NCBI GenBank assembly: GCA_011389655.1
Contig: JAABTX010000005.1
Coordinates: 1 to 54,433, forward strand
DNA length: 54,433 nucleotides
Source: Thioalkalivibrio sp.
GTDB taxonomy: Bacteria > Pseudomonadota > Gammaproteobacteria > Ectothiorhodospirales > Ectothiorhodospiraceae
Direction: 5' to 3'
The first letter of the stretch is position 1. Every line of letters starts with the position of its first letter. The notes beneath the pieces were generated by a model. That model did no database searches, had not been told where the DNA came from, and saw only the letters and a list, made by a program, of their open reading frames with translations. A program made the translations under genes and the position numbers. This document shows positions 33,425-38,571 of this stretch, piece after piece.

Positions 33425-34177
33425 TCACAGGCGGATATACGTCCAGCCTTCCGCCTGCCGCTGCGCGGCCTCCCGCACACCGGACTCCACCTCCTCCACC
33501 CAGGGCAGGAACTCGATCAGACGGTCCTCCTCGCGCTCGCGGCGCGCGCGGGACTGGCCGCAGGCGGTGACGCGAAGGTTCGGATAGTTGTACACGAGAT
33601 CACGGATCCGGTTCGGAAACGGTGCGAGGTCGGTCCGGACCAGTTCGAGCGCCGTTCCGTGCACCACCAGCTGCACCTCGAGCTCCTCTCCGTCCAGCCA
33701 GGCGGTCTGGAGCATGTGCTCGATGTCGTCGAACAGCGCCGCAGCCTCGAGTCGGTCCGTCTCGGTCACATGAAAGAGGACCTGGTCGACATCCGGCCGT
33801 CCCGCCGCGACCGCGGCACTCGCCGCGACACCCGGGTCCCCGTTCCCGACCATCGGCACGGGCTCGTGCGCACCGTCGCGAGTGAACCCGATCACCGCGA
33901 TCAGCACCAGCGCCAGGGCACCGATCGCTGCCACCAGCGCCGGCAGCCAGCTGCGCGGCGAGCCCGTCCGAGGCGGACGCCGAACAGCCGACGTCGGCAG
34001 CACATCCGGCCGATAGGCCATGTTCACCAGCTCCTTCAATTGGTAGAAGTCGCAGACTTCCCGGCTCAGGCTCTCGTTGGCCGAGATCGACTGCAACGCG
34101 GAGAGACGGTCCTCCGGCGAGAACTCCCCATCGACAAAGGCATTGAGGATCTCCTCGCTGGGGCGTCCTTCACTCAT
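33425..34177 (-). CDS. Membrane anti-sigma factor with C-terminal DsrE-like domain
   Basis: A 250-residue protein in three parts. Residues 1-60 resemble anti-sigma N-terminal domains (SEEILNAFVDGEFSPEDRLSALQSI), with a single Cys42 and no full zinc HxxxCxxC motif. Residues 77-98 form one membrane helix. After a Pro/Gly/Ala linker, residues 128-250 match the DsrE/DsrF sulfur-relay family: VDQVLFHVTETDRLEAAALFDDIEHML, VQLVVHGTALELV, LRVTACGQSRARR with candidate sulfur-carrying Cys206, and SGVREAAQRQAEGWTYIRL. By topology the DsrE-like part would face the periplasm. It overlaps the ECF sigma gene by eight bases. A role sensing reactive sulfur or thiol redox state is inference. Confidence 0.78.
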   Translation of the reverse strand: MSEGRPSEEILNAFVDGEFSPEDRLSALQSISANESLSREVCDFYQLKELVNMAYRPDVLPTSAVRRPPRTGSPRSWLPALVAAIGALALVLIAVIGFTRDGAHEPVPMVGNGDPGVAASAAVAAGRPDVDQVLFHVTETDRLEAAALFDDIEHMLQTAWLDGEELEVQLVVHGTALELVRTDLAPFPNRIRDLVYNYPNLRVTACGQSRARREREEDRLIEFLPWVEEVESGVREAAQRQAEGWTYIRL

Positions 34178-34715
34178 TGCGGGTTCTCACCAGCCTCAGC
34201 GTCGGCGACTCGGGAGCCGCCTGTTCCAGCAACAGCTTCCGCAACTGCGTGCGGGCCCGGCTGAGCCGGCTCATCACTGTGCCGATCGGCACGTCGAGCA
34301 CTTCCGAGACCTCGGCGTAGGCAAAACCCTCGAGGTCGACGAGCGCAACCACCTGGCGGTGATCATCACTGAGTTGCGCCATCGCGCGGCGCACGTCCTG
34401 AACCACGCGGCTGCGTTCCGTCTGGGTCTCGGGACAGTCGCCGCAGGGCAGCTCCATCTCGTCCACGTCCACCGTGTCCTTCTGCCGGCGTCCCCAGTCC
34501 CGGTAGCAGTTGGTCATGATGCGGAAGACCCAGGCCCTCAGTGCGGCCTCGTCCTGCAAGGTCTTCAGGCGCGTCAGCGCCTTCATCATCGCTTCCTGGA
34601 CCAGGTCATCGGCCAGTGCGGCGTCGTGACACCAGGCGTAGGCGGTTCGGTACAGCTGGGGCCGCATTTCGCACACCTGTTGCCGCAAACGCCGCTGTGC
34701 CAGCCACGTTGCCAT
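34170..34715 (-). CDS. ECF-type RNA polymerase sigma factor
   Basis: A 181-residue extracytoplasmic-function sigma factor. Region 2 has LYRTAYAWCHDAALADDLVQEAMMKALTRL and AWVFRIMTNCYRDWGRRQK, with Trp-rich promoter-melting residues. Region 4 has DDHRQVVALVDLEGFAYAEVSEVLDVPIGTVMSRLSRARTQLRKLL, the HTH that binds the -35 element. No region 1.1 or 3 is present, as in all ECF factors. GAGGAG precedes the ATG. The stop overlaps the start of the DsrE-fused anti-sigma factor, the usual sigma/anti-sigma pairing. Its regulon is unknown. Confidence 0.92.
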   Translation of the reverse strand: MATWLAQRRLRQQVCEMRPQLYRTAYAWCHDAALADDLVQEAMMKALTRLKTLQDEAALRAWVFRIMTNCYRDWGRRQKDTVDVDEMELPCGDCPETQTERSRVVQDVRRAMAQLSDDHRQVVALVDLEGFAYAEVSEVLDVPIGTVMSRLSRARTQLRKLLLEQAAPESPTLRLVRTRNE

Positions 34716-34769
34716 CCGTCTCTCCTCGCCCGACCGTCGTCGCGATCTTGCTTGTTGTTGTGCGGTGTA

Positions 34770-34792
34770 AGACGCTAGTCATATAGACGCTA
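34770..34792. promoter_or_regulatory. Direct repeat AGACGCTA x2 between sigma gene and divergent gene
   Basis: Perfect 8-bp direct repeats at 34770-34777 and 34785-34792, separated by GTCATAT (15-bp period), in the 112-bp interval between divergent start codons. On the minus strand they contain CGTCT, reminiscent of ECF -10 elements. They could be sigma or regulator sites; this is a guess from position only. Confidence 0.4.
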
Positions 34793-34827
34793 TTCCCGGA
34801 CATTGCCGGAGCCCCGGCAGGAAGACC

Positions 34828-35295
34828 ATGGCCTTCGACCCCGAACAACTCGAGAATTCCTTCGCCTTCGACCCGGATGCAATCGCGGAACTCCGGGCCG
34901 CCTGGTCCGAACTGATCGTGGCGGTCGTCTGGGACGACCTGAAGAGCAGCTCGATCGGCGCGCTGCCCCGGCTGCGCAAGCGGGTGCTGGAGGTCGGCGA
35001 AAACCTCCGGTCGCTGCTGTCGGACCGGCGCTGGATCCCACACGAACGCGAGCGGGTCAAGGGCGCCATGGCGGCCAGCCTGAACCTGCGCGACAGCCTG
35101 CAGCAGGCCGACCGGGCGGCGAGGCTGGTCTCGGGTGGTGCGGATCTCAAGCCCTTTGAGGAGCGATACCTGTCGTTCCGAAAGCGGCTCCTGACACTGA
35201 TCGAGATCCACGAGCAGCGTTGGGGCGACCTGCTGGAAAGCCTCTACGCCGAGGACGCCGAGCCGGACGAGGATCCTGAAGACCGGCCTGATTGA
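34828..35295 (+). CDS. Unknown 155-residue protein divergent from ECF sigma factor
   Basis: A 155-residue soluble, mostly helical and acidic protein (AFDPDAIAELRAAWSELIVAVVWDDLKSS, LRDSLQQADRAARLV, LLTLIEIHEQRWGDLLESLYAEDAEPDEDPEDRPD). No cysteines, signal peptide or membrane segments are seen, and no known family was recognised. AGGAAGACC precedes the ATG at 34828. It is transcribed away from the sigma gene across a 112-bp region holding a direct repeat, so it may be a target of that sigma factor; this is inference. Confidence 0.7.
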   Translation: MAFDPEQLENSFAFDPDAIAELRAAWSELIVAVVWDDLKSSSIGALPRLRKRVLEVGENLRSLLSDRRWIPHERERVKGAMAASLNLRDSLQQADRAARLVSGGADLKPFEERYLSFRKRLLTLIEIHEQRWGDLLESLYAEDAEPDEDPEDRPD

Positions 35296-35520: not shown

Positions 35521-35662
35521 TGCCCTTGGCAGCCCCGTCCGCAGGCGGGAGAGGGGGAACGGCGCGACTTTCACGTTAACATGAGGTTTCAGGGCGCCTT
35601 CGGCCTTCGGCTGACGCGCCACCCCCGGGGAATCCGGAGCACGAGGCCACACGGGGCAGGTG

Positions 35663-37099
35663 ATGGGCGAAGACATCAGCGAGGGACGCTTCACCCTGGA
35701 GGACTATCGACGCTTCGCAAACTGCCTGGAGCGCGAGACGGAGTTGCTCGGGCACTGGTTGCGGAGCCGGGAGGAGCCCGGCTGCAGCCGTCCGCGCCTG
35801 GGCTTCGAGATCGAGGCCTGGCTGATCGACCAGGACTGCCAGCCTCTCCCCGGCAACGAGGCCTTTCTCGAGGCCTTCGACCATCCGATGGCTGCGCTCG
35901 AGCTCGCCCAGTTCAACGTCGAGCTCAATTCCAGCGTGTTCCAGACCGGGACCGAGTGCTTCTGCATGGTGCTCGAGGAACTCACCGAGACCCTGCGCCG
36001 GGCCCGGGCGGCAGCAGAGCAGATCGGCGGGACGCTGCTGATGGCGGGTACACTGCCGACCCTGCTGCCGGAGCATCTGGGGCTGCACCACATGTCCCGG
36101 CGCACCCGGTACCAGGCGCTGAACAGCGCGGTGCTGGAACGCCGCGCGCAGCGGCCGCTGCGGCTGGAGATCGAGGGCCGCGAACACCTGCGCCACCAAC
36201 ACACGGATGTGATGCTGGAGGCCGCGGCCACGTCATTCCAGATCCACCTGGAGACCCAGCCGACGGTCGCGCACCGGGTCTACAACGCCGCGCTCGCGGC
36301 CTCCGCACCGGTGCTGGCCGCGAGCGGCAACGCCCCGTTCCTGTTCGGCAAGCTCCTGTGGGAGGAGTCCCGGATCCCCCTGTTCGAGCAGGCGGTCGAA
36401 GTGGGCGGCTTCGGCGACTCCGCGCGCGGCCCCGTCCGCCGGGTGACCTTCGGCAGCGGCTACCTGCGCGAGAGCATCTTGGAGGCCTTCGAGGAGAACC
36501 GTCAGCACTTCCCGATCCTGTTGCCGAGCCGCCTGCCGGAGAACGACGCGACGCTTGCTCATCTGCGTCTGCACAATGGCACGATCTGGCGCTGGAACCG
36601 GCCGATCCTGGGAATCGACCCCGATGGCAGCTTCAATCTCCGGATCGAACACCGGAGCCTGCCCGCCGGACCCACCCTCGAGGACATGCTCGCGAACACC
36701 GCCCTGTTGCTGGGTCTGATCGAGCATCTGGTATCGCAGGCAGGCAACGGACACGGCGCCCTCGAGTTCGCCAGTGCCCGCGACAACTTCTACGCCGCCG
36801 CCCGCTACGGCCTCAGGAGCCGCCTGCGCTGGGAGGACCGGCAGCCGCAACCCGCCCGGCAGCTGATACTGCAGCGCCTGCTGCCCTGCGCCGCGGACGG
36901 TCTGGACCGGCTCGGCATCGATGGCAGCGAGCGCGATCACCTGCTGGGGATCGTCTCGGCCCGGGTGCAGTCCGGGCAGACCGGCAGCATCTGGCAGCAG
37001 CGCTGGGTCGACCGTCACGGCCGCGACATGAAGGCCCTGACCCGGGCCTACCGTGACTGGCAGGACACCGGCCTGCCGGTACACAATTGGAGTCTGTGA
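35663..37099 (+). CDS. Glutamate-cysteine ligase-like (GCS2) protein
   Basis: A 478-residue member of the GCS2/glutamate-amine ligase superfamily. GFEIEAWLIDQD is the Glu-rich start typical of the fold, LAQFNVELNSSVF and SFQIHLETQPTVAHRVYNAALAASAPVLAASGNAPF follow, and RIEHRSLPAGPTLEDMLANTALLLGLIEHL resembles the C-terminal part of gamma-glutamylcysteine ligases. The true acceptor is unknown; Cys-containing or amine substrates are possible. Start is ATG 35663; a GTG three bases upstream is equally possible. It overlaps the downstream aspartoacylase-like gene by one base (TGATG), so they form an operon. Confidence 0.78.
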   Translation: MGEDISEGRFTLEDYRRFANCLERETELLGHWLRSREEPGCSRPRLGFEIEAWLIDQDCQPLPGNEAFLEAFDHPMAALELAQFNVELNSSVFQTGTECFCMVLEELTETLRRARAAAEQIGGTLLMAGTLPTLLPEHLGLHHMSRRTRYQALNSAVLERRAQRPLRLEIEGREHLRHQHTDVMLEAAATSFQIHLETQPTVAHRVYNAALAASAPVLAASGNAPFLFGKLLWEESRIPLFEQAVEVGGFGDSARGPVRRVTFGSGYLRESILEAFEENRQHFPILLPSRLPENDATLAHLRLHNGTIWRWNRPILGIDPDGSFNLRIEHRSLPAGPTLEDMLANTALLLGLIEHLVSQAGNGHGALEFASARDNFYAAARYGLRSRLRWEDRQPQPARQLILQRLLPCAADGLDRLGIDGSERDHLLGIVSARVQSGQTGSIWQQRWVDRHGRDMKALTRAYRDWQDTGLPVHNWSL

Positions 37100-38494: not shown

Positions 38495-38571
38495 TGGTGG
38501 CTACGCCCTGATTCGAACAGGGGACCCCATCATTATGAGTGATGTGCTCTAACCAGCTGAGCTACGTAGCC
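38495..38571 (-). tRNA. tRNA-Met (CAT), elongator type
   Basis: On the minus strand GGCTACG pairs with CGTAGCC to form a seven-pair acceptor stem, followed by discriminator A and encoded CCA (38495-38497). The D arm contains AGCTCAGCTGGTTAGAGC, the anticodon arm CATCA-CTCATAA-TGATG with anticodon CAT, and the T arm CCCTG-TTCGAAT-CAGGG. The TTCGAAT T-loop and first G-C pair indicate an elongator rather than initiator tRNA. Confidence 0.95.

Follow-up and report, generated by a model that had tools for sequence, protein, structure and literature searches.

Introduction

Sigma factors of the extracytoplasmic function (ECF) type that are tied to sulfur metabolism are already known. RpoE1 and RpoE4 of Sinorhizobium meliloti, which belong to group ECF26, act in the response to sulfite (PMC3511301), and ECF sigma-2 of Arcobacter butzleri activates the sox genes and also drives nap (PMC3445524); for Acidithiobacillia, TspS/TspR together with sigma54 has been proposed to regulate sox (PMC12194929). 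On the side of the sulfur carriers, the cysteines of DsrE3A from Metallosphaera cuprina take thiosulfate groups from tetrathionate and pass them on, and TusA is a thiosulfate-transfer protein as well; in the same test DsrE3A showed no reaction with thiosulfate, polysulfide, sulfide or sulfite (PMC4175335). DsrE-like proteins have also been noted in cable bacteria (PMC13047784). We describe a locus of Thioalkalivibrio sp. (GenBank assembly GCA_011389655.1, contig JAABTX010000005.1, positions 1 to 54,433, the whole of which we call the window) in which the gene of an ECF sigma factor overlaps that of a membrane protein joining an anti-sigma-like domain to a DsrE domain. This pair is probably a transmembrane sigma/anti-sigma switch, a sulfur sensor that controls thiosulfate oxidation. 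Its anatomy and its regulon in Thioalkalivibrio are well supported; the chemistry at its cysteine 206 (Cys206) and the step that releases the sigma factor we infer. To our knowledge, the sensing of sulfur compounds by sulfur chemolithotrophs in the periplasm, where Sox works, is poorly known.

RpoE1 and RpoE4 resemble the pair in lying beside putative anti-sigma genes and in controlling the oxidation of sulfur compounds together with their own operons (PMC3511301). They differ in that their target is the sulfite dehydrogenase SorT and their signal is thought to be intracellular sulfite, and no DsrE domain is described in the accessible part of that source (PMC3511301). A. butzleri sigma-2 is similar as an ECF sigma factor acting on sox; going by its description, it differs in also driving nap, and no DsrE domain is mentioned in the part of the paper at hand (PMC3445524). 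TspS/TspR is likewise a proposed sox regulator, but consists of a two-component system with sigma54 instead of an ECF sigma factor with a membrane anti-sigma factor (PMC12194929).

The sigma factor and the fusion protein

The sigma factor gene (34170-34715, minus strand, 181 residues) and the gene of the fusion protein (33425-34177, minus strand, 250 residues) overlap by 8 bp. The sigma factor matches the Pfam families Sigma70_r2 (E 4.9e-14) and Sigma70_r4_2 (E 1.1e-14), and the restriction to regions 2 and 4 at a length of about 180 residues is characteristic of ECF (group IV) sigma factors. With regard to an ECF subgroup, the best equivalog model of NCBIfam scored 118 bits against a cut-off of 185, and among the best 25 of 105 NCBIfam matches the superfamily model TIGR02937 was the only one whose cut-off was passed. 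This sigma group may be listed in the 2021 ECF reclassification. A preliminary description of the locus had proposed just such an ECF sigma gene in overlap with a gene encoding an anti-sigma domain, a membrane helix and a DsrE-like domain; both genes lie where it placed them, and the fusion is confirmed by profile, by fold and by full-length homologues.

From a contig scan that found 110 relatives, we compared the loci of the best 80. In all 80, a homologue of the sigma gene lies immediately 5' of the fusion gene on the same strand. Since the query of the scan was one short N-terminal pattern, the species list of these loci is biased toward the N-terminal motif. Where a genus is named, in most cases it is one of sulfur oxidisers, namely Thioalkalivibrio, Halothiobacillus, Guyparkeria, Thiobacillus, Sulfuricella or Sulfurimicrobium.

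Residues 1-57 of the fusion protein (34007-34177, minus strand) constitute an anti-sigma-like helical domain, with helices at 8-15, 21-33 and 35-54 in an AlphaFold2 model from 57 sequences; L11, A13, D16 and C42 are invariant in 27 sequences. A Pfam search gave no anti-sigma match for the N-terminus of the window protein, and the zinc motif Hx3Cx2C, for which we looked there, is absent, C42 being all that is left in that region. Among the homologues, 12 of 57 match zf-HC2 below threshold and one of 25 matches RseA_N weakly. Against the Protein Data Bank (PDB), an N-terminal profile found MucA (E 0.26) and RseA (E 0.31), no better than unrelated helical chains; phage scaffold chimeras scored equally or higher, and we rejected the match to solved anti-sigma factors as not significant. 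The fold comparison covered about residues 122-250 and barely sampled the N-terminal fold. The anti-sigma role ascribed to this domain in the preliminary description is consistent with the sub-threshold and weak matches of the homologues, with the three model helices and with the sigma gene upstream in 80 of 80 loci.

Short proteins with the same anti-sigma-like N-terminus, but without a DsrE domain, are encoded at L060 (G000, the genome of the window, contig C33, 4742-4981) and L078 (7712-7972), which suggests that the two domains are modular.

A single membrane helix follows at residues 78-99 (33881-33946, minus strand), according to the model and the flanking charges; it had first been placed at 77-98. 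Lysine and arginine are in excess on its N-terminal side in 53 of 57 homologues, equal in four and fewer in none. These charges put the N-terminus inside, and therefore the DsrE domain should face the periplasm, the side to which it had been assigned before.

The DsrE domain and Cys206

The putatively periplasmic outer domain (residues 130-250; 33428-33790, minus strand) is a DsrE domain of the MTH1491 type, as judged by profile search, model and fold comparison. Taken alone, the window protein scores 18 bits against Pfam DsrE (PF02635), below the gathering cut-off of 22.7. The proposed DsrE/DsrF similarity is borne out by the homologues, 15 of 57 of which match PF02635 at E 0.01 or better, and by MTH1491 (1l1s). 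The latter was found by phmmer of the fusion protein at 3.1e-6, and a profile from 25 homologues found it with hmmsearch against PDB at 5.3e-21; this alignment spans the entire domain and places Cys206 on a cysteine of MTH1491.

The predicted structure of the C-terminal half agrees with this assignment. In the AlphaFold2 model (57 sequences), residues 131-249 adopt the DsrE fold with a pLDDT of about 97, and comparison of the model with 1l1s gave a Z-score of 17.8 and an rmsd of 1.4 Å over 109 residues; for 2hy5_A of DsrEFH these values were Z 12.1 and rmsd 2.9 over 110 residues.

Cys206 (codon at 33560-33562, minus strand), the residue of the TACG motif that the preliminary description had singled out, is invariant in 25 of 25 and in 57 of 57 sequences. 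It is one of only four invariant columns in the alignment of 25 sequences (A1) and one of five in the alignment of 57 (A2), which reaches down to 22% identity.

Promoter sites at sox genes in Thioalkalivibrio

The sigma operon is preceded by an ECF-type promoter sequence, GGAATA-N16-CGTC (34771-34796, minus strand). ECF promoters typically combine a GGAA-type -35 with a CGTC-type -10 element. The sigma gene is preceded by such a site, its spacer 15 or 16 nt long, in 75 of the 78 loci that could be evaluated (2 of the 80 had too little upstream sequence); in 36 of the 78 there is another copy in the opposite orientation. Elsewhere in these loci, none of the 320-nt tiles of the forward strand holds the site. 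The direct repeats that the preliminary description reported at 34770-34792, and regarded as a possible part of the regulon, are indeed present, at 34770-34780 and 34785-34795, with 91% identity across 11 nt. We rejected them as an independent element because both copies overlap the promoter of the sigma gene itself: the -10 element lies in one copy, and the other covers the beginning of the spacer and the greater part of the -35 element.

The 3.46-Mb genome to which the window belongs contains exactly three exact matches to GGAATA-N16-CGTC: before the sigma gene, before soxY-soxZ and before soxA. SoxY, SoxZ and SoxA of this genome exceed their NCBIfam cut-offs; the gene after soxA encodes a heme-binding CxxCH motif and has no NCBIfam match. 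We searched 39 genomes for the motif and examined the matches of 21, leaving out those of the other 18; the examined set comprises all 60 non-self matches of 17 other Thioalkalivibrio genomes and all 20 matches of four family members without the fusion. An N16 site precedes soxA in 17 of 17 and soxYZ in 16 of 17 of these Thioalkalivibrio genomes, the remaining one (G012) having a 15-nt spacer at soxYZ. Together, these sites account for 33 of the 60 matches. The boxes are conserved, and the mean pairwise identity of the spacers is 0.46 at soxY and 0.35 at soxA.

By a simple gene caller, 49 of the 60 Thioalkalivibrio matches are intergenic, as opposed to 1 of 20 in the fusion-less family members, and a looser intergenic rule for the sox loci made no difference to these counts. 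When forward open reading frames (ORFs) that seem to start at most 170 nt before the motif are ignored, the counts become 55 of 60 and 14 of 20; this rule also drops real genes, because the fetched stretches start only about 150 nt before the motif. In the fusion-less relative G033, the motif is absent upstream of soxYZ (L326).

Further N16 sites in Thioalkalivibrio lie before soxB (L209 and L226, TIGR04486 passed) and before SoxH-like hydrolases (L216 and L222, the latter below its NCBIfam cut-off). Rhodanese-like genes follow the site in L197, L201, L211, L223, L239, L249, L213 and L245; L197 and L213 were called from NCBIfam matches below cut-off and the other six by eye. A GGDEF-type protein, named by its motif, follows in L192, L206 and L243, and the remaining matches have no evident sulfur link.

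In L215 (G010) and L221 (G012) the site lies before ccoN-ccoO, 122 nt ahead of the ORF start of ccoN, which encodes a cbb3 oxidase subunit; ccoN of L215 passed its NCBIfam cut-off. This placement hints at a link between terminal respiration and the supply of sulfur in G010 and G012.

The position of the sites bears on the view that the pair is a conventional sigma system for envelope stress or redox responses, with a DsrE domain that no longer has a function in sulfur handling. It is common for membrane anti-sigma factors to carry outer domains of various kinds, and the score of the outer domain under the Pfam cut-off would suit such a loss. The invariance of Cys206, the predominance of sulfur oxidisers among the genus labels and the 33 of 60 matches ahead of soxA or soxYZ all argue against it, and we consider it extremely improbable.

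The small DsrE partner gene

A small DsrE gene lies within the fetched flanks of 59 of the 80 loci, divergent in 36, downstream in 22 and otherwise placed in one; several of the 21 loci without it end near the sigma-fusion pair. Of the 36 loci with a divergent partner, 31 have the reverse promoter copy. The cysteine matching Cys206 is present in 64 of 66 partner copies, and a signal-peptide-like N-terminus was seen in 55 of the 56 in which the start of the domain was found (it could not be placed in 10 of the 66), by a crude script rule.

In L320 (G161, contig C22), two tandem sigma-fusion pairs, each with a promoter motif, are flanked on both sides by DsrE partners. L332 and L333 (G029, contig C1, about 739-742 kb) form a tandem of DsrE genes whose starts resemble signal peptides; GGAATA-N15-CGTC precedes each of the two, and paired N15 matches with a similar spacing occur in several related genomes.

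The genome of the window holds a second, paralogous system on contig C148 (L059, about 6.3-9.0 kb), with the order divergent DsrE gene with a signal-peptide-like start, sigma factor, anti-sigma-DsrE fusion, and another such DsrE gene. Its fusion is about 26% identical to that of the window, and the DsrE match there passes the Pfam cut-off. The upstream regions contain GGAATAAA elements and no exact N16 motif.

Instead of a chemical sensor, the outer domain could be a docking platform for a secreted DsrE partner or a Sox protein, reporting the level or occupancy of that protein, with Cys206 kept for structure or for the assembly of an oligomer. The partner gene in 59 of 80 loci would fit this, as would the homotrimer formed by MTH1491, the closest structure (PMC5495134), and the partner of two species (L098, L099), which has a serine in place of the cysteine where the fusion keeps its own. 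A cysteine that is among only four or five invariant columns fits a chemical role better, and at the window locus there is no partner gene with which to dock. We therefore regard docking as unlikely and prefer a sulfur group on Cys206 as the signal.

Occurrence beyond Thioalkalivibrio

The full fusion, defined as a match from model position 11 or less to 240 or more, occurs among the matches listed in 46 of 229 genomes of the class. We counted G142, in which the matches are partial and split, as lacking it. SoxY was found at E 0.001 in 41 of the 46 genomes with the fusion, compared with 82 of the 183 without (Fisher p 2e-8, uncorrected for kinship), and over its curated cut-off in 38 of 46 compared with 57 of 183.

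In two genomes the association is physical. In L317, a divergent DsrE gene and a promoter site stand at the head of the order sigma factor, fusion, soxX, soxY, soxZ, soxA, soxB. In L318, the motif is followed by soxX-like, soxY, soxZ, soxA-like and soxB genes and a DsrE gene, and near this cluster there are a further DsrE gene and a sigma-fusion pair that has a motif to itself. SoxB, SoxA and SoxX of L317 and SoxB of L318 passed NCBIfam cut-offs, SoxY and SoxZ of both loci were identified by phmmer, and soxX and soxA of L318 by eye. In L306 and L308, too, the motif stands at the head of a gene order, here soxX-like, soxY, soxZ-like, soxA-like. In T. denitrificans strain RG, reached via L137, one of only four genome-wide matches to GGAATAA-N15-CGTC (L280) is followed by a further DsrE gene, again one whose start resembles a signal peptide; this motif keeps the 16-nt spacing and fixes one more base.

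Several observations weigh against a sulfur switch that controls thiosulfate oxidation. The sequence similarity of the N-terminal domain to anti-sigma factors is weak. The window locus has no DsrE partner gene in its fetched flanks, nor do its three close sisters (L079-L081) at this locus, and in L098 and L099 the partner has serine in place of the cysteine. Raw match counts in 18 genomes amount to 101 for N15, 80 for N16 and 50 for N17. Among 30 SoxY loci, one per genome and taken from the best SoxY matches in a sample of the class, the exact motif is present in 2 of 13 from genomes with the fusion and in none of the 17 from genomes lacking it; two of the 13, L294 and L309, include hardly any sequence upstream. 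A weight matrix trained on exact motif matches, applied to the same loci, added a third fusion genome at 11.4 bits (background maximum 2.5) and also gave 7.0-7.6 bits, above background, for three loci from genomes without the fusion. In three genomes, those of L105, L107 and L116 from Halothiobacillus and Guyparkeria, matches to GGAATAA-N15-CGTC are confined to sigma and partner genes; in the three other genomes searched, some of the extra matches precede genes that show no apparent link to sulfur (L274, L284). The genes concerned were named by eye, as a TPR-type protein in T. denitrificans RG (L274) and an iron-sulfur protein in Sulfurimicrobium (L284); in Sulfuricella T08, a YeiH-like permease gene, likewise named by eye, follows the motif (L278).

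As the N16 counts are not above those for N15, we discarded raw motif counts as evidence for a regulon, and only position supports that argument. Among 19 control matches (all 8 N15 of G029, and all 5 N15 and 6 of 7 N17 of G000), none lies at a sox gene and two precede the tandem DsrE genes of G029. The N15 match L329 was chosen deliberately, its spacer resembling the soxYZ site of G010. The 2 of 13 SoxY loci rule out a universal control of sox in all fusion genomes. With sox sites being patchy outside Thioalkalivibrio, the most constant core consists of the sigma factor, the fusion and the DsrE partner; sox comes under this control as a rule in Thioalkalivibrio and in occasional cases outside it.

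This patchiness also bears on whether the sox promoters are read by the sigma factor of the window at all. They could be read by another ECF sigma factor with the same -35 element, such as the C148 paralogue, leaving to the pair the control of itself and the DsrE genes. The complete paralogous system with its GGAATAAA elements speaks for this, as does the want of an exact site at soxY in most of the fusion genomes tested outside Thioalkalivibrio. On the other side, the sites at soxYZ and soxA agree exactly with the window sigma gene's own promoter in spacing and in the -10 element, the exact N16 match is absent at C148, and sox genes sit together with this type of pair in L317 and L318. We judge a different reader of the sox promoters to be quite improbable and continue with the pair as the regulator of sox.

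Proposed mechanism

Membrane anti-sigma factors have an ordinary organisation, whose logic the layout of the pair follows. In the absence of reduced sulfur, the N-terminal domain would hold the sigma factor at the membrane. Thiosulfate, polythionate or sulfane sulfur reaching the periplasm would be the signal, and the DsrE domain would take a sulfur group on Cys206, either directly or from the secreted DsrE partner. This group may change the outer domain such that the sigma factor is freed, which would then drive the sox genes, the relay genes and its own operon. Since the sigma factor would drive its own operon, the inhibitor would be remade and the response could be shut off again. The preliminary description had already seen a sulfur-gated sigma pair here; the sox promoter sites strengthen its link to sulfur metabolism, and gating by Cys206 itself is hypothetical.

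A further idea, which we put forward tentatively, is that a sulfur relay serves as transmembrane signalling: the secreted DsrE carrier would load the DsrE domain of the fusion, and the cell would read the flux of thiosulfate oxidation. The freed sigma factor would in that case remake both the DsrE carrier and the thiosulfate-oxidising machinery.

If the proposed switch is real, the DsrE fold, so far familiar from sulfur carriers, gains a role as signal receiver. The pair is a concrete candidate sensor, offering a cysteine for mutagenesis together with a promoter sequence and a list of targets in Thioalkalivibrio; it has relatives in Guyparkeria and Thiobacillus, and could furnish a set of parts for thiosulfate-responsive gene control.

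Neighbouring genes

The divergent gene beyond the promoter (34828-35295, plus strand) encodes a protein of 155 residues that matched neither Pfam nor NCBIfam and has no family assigned; ORFs resembling it are found next to the pair at many of the loci compared. The preliminary description counted it as a possible member of the regulon. We rejected this because no motif faces the gene: in the Thioalkalivibrio loci L079-L103, there is no opposite-facing GGAATA motif within 320 nt upstream of the sigma gene. It is a syntenic neighbour.

A GCS2-type ligase gene (35660-37099 of the window) is likewise retained next to the sigma operon at many of these loci. The only Rfam match of the window at the gathering threshold is a tRNA gene (38498-38571, minus strand).

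Comparison with known systems

Our literature search for DsrE in connection with anti-sigma or ECF sigma factors returned no description of the fusion in the accessible text, the word matches examined being to DsRed or to a table entry for yrkE. Likewise, the available parts of PMC10512742 (on STAS domains), PMC5744179, PMC2147049, PMC3368412 and PMC13047784 contain nothing on such a sigma system.

Among the structures, MTH1491 (1l1s) and ST0148 (2pd2) share with the outer domain the fold, a cysteine at the aligned position and the GW-Y ending; their chains consist of the DsrE domain alone, without an anti-sigma domain or a membrane helix. In function, DsrE3A and TusA are closest to the role proposed for Cys206, in that a DsrE cysteine carries a thiosulfate group (PMC4175335). 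They differ in being cytoplasmic carriers and no regulators, and DsrE3A has two conserved cysteines (PMC4175335).

In its architecture, the fusion resembles the class I anti-sigma factors of the RseA and zinc types, which have an N-terminal helical domain, often one membrane helix, and an adjacent sigma gene (PMC7406223). Like RseA and RskA it has no Hx3Cx2C motif, and it differs from this class in that its outer domain is a DsrE domain (PMC7406223). It is this DsrE receiver that is the special part of the system.

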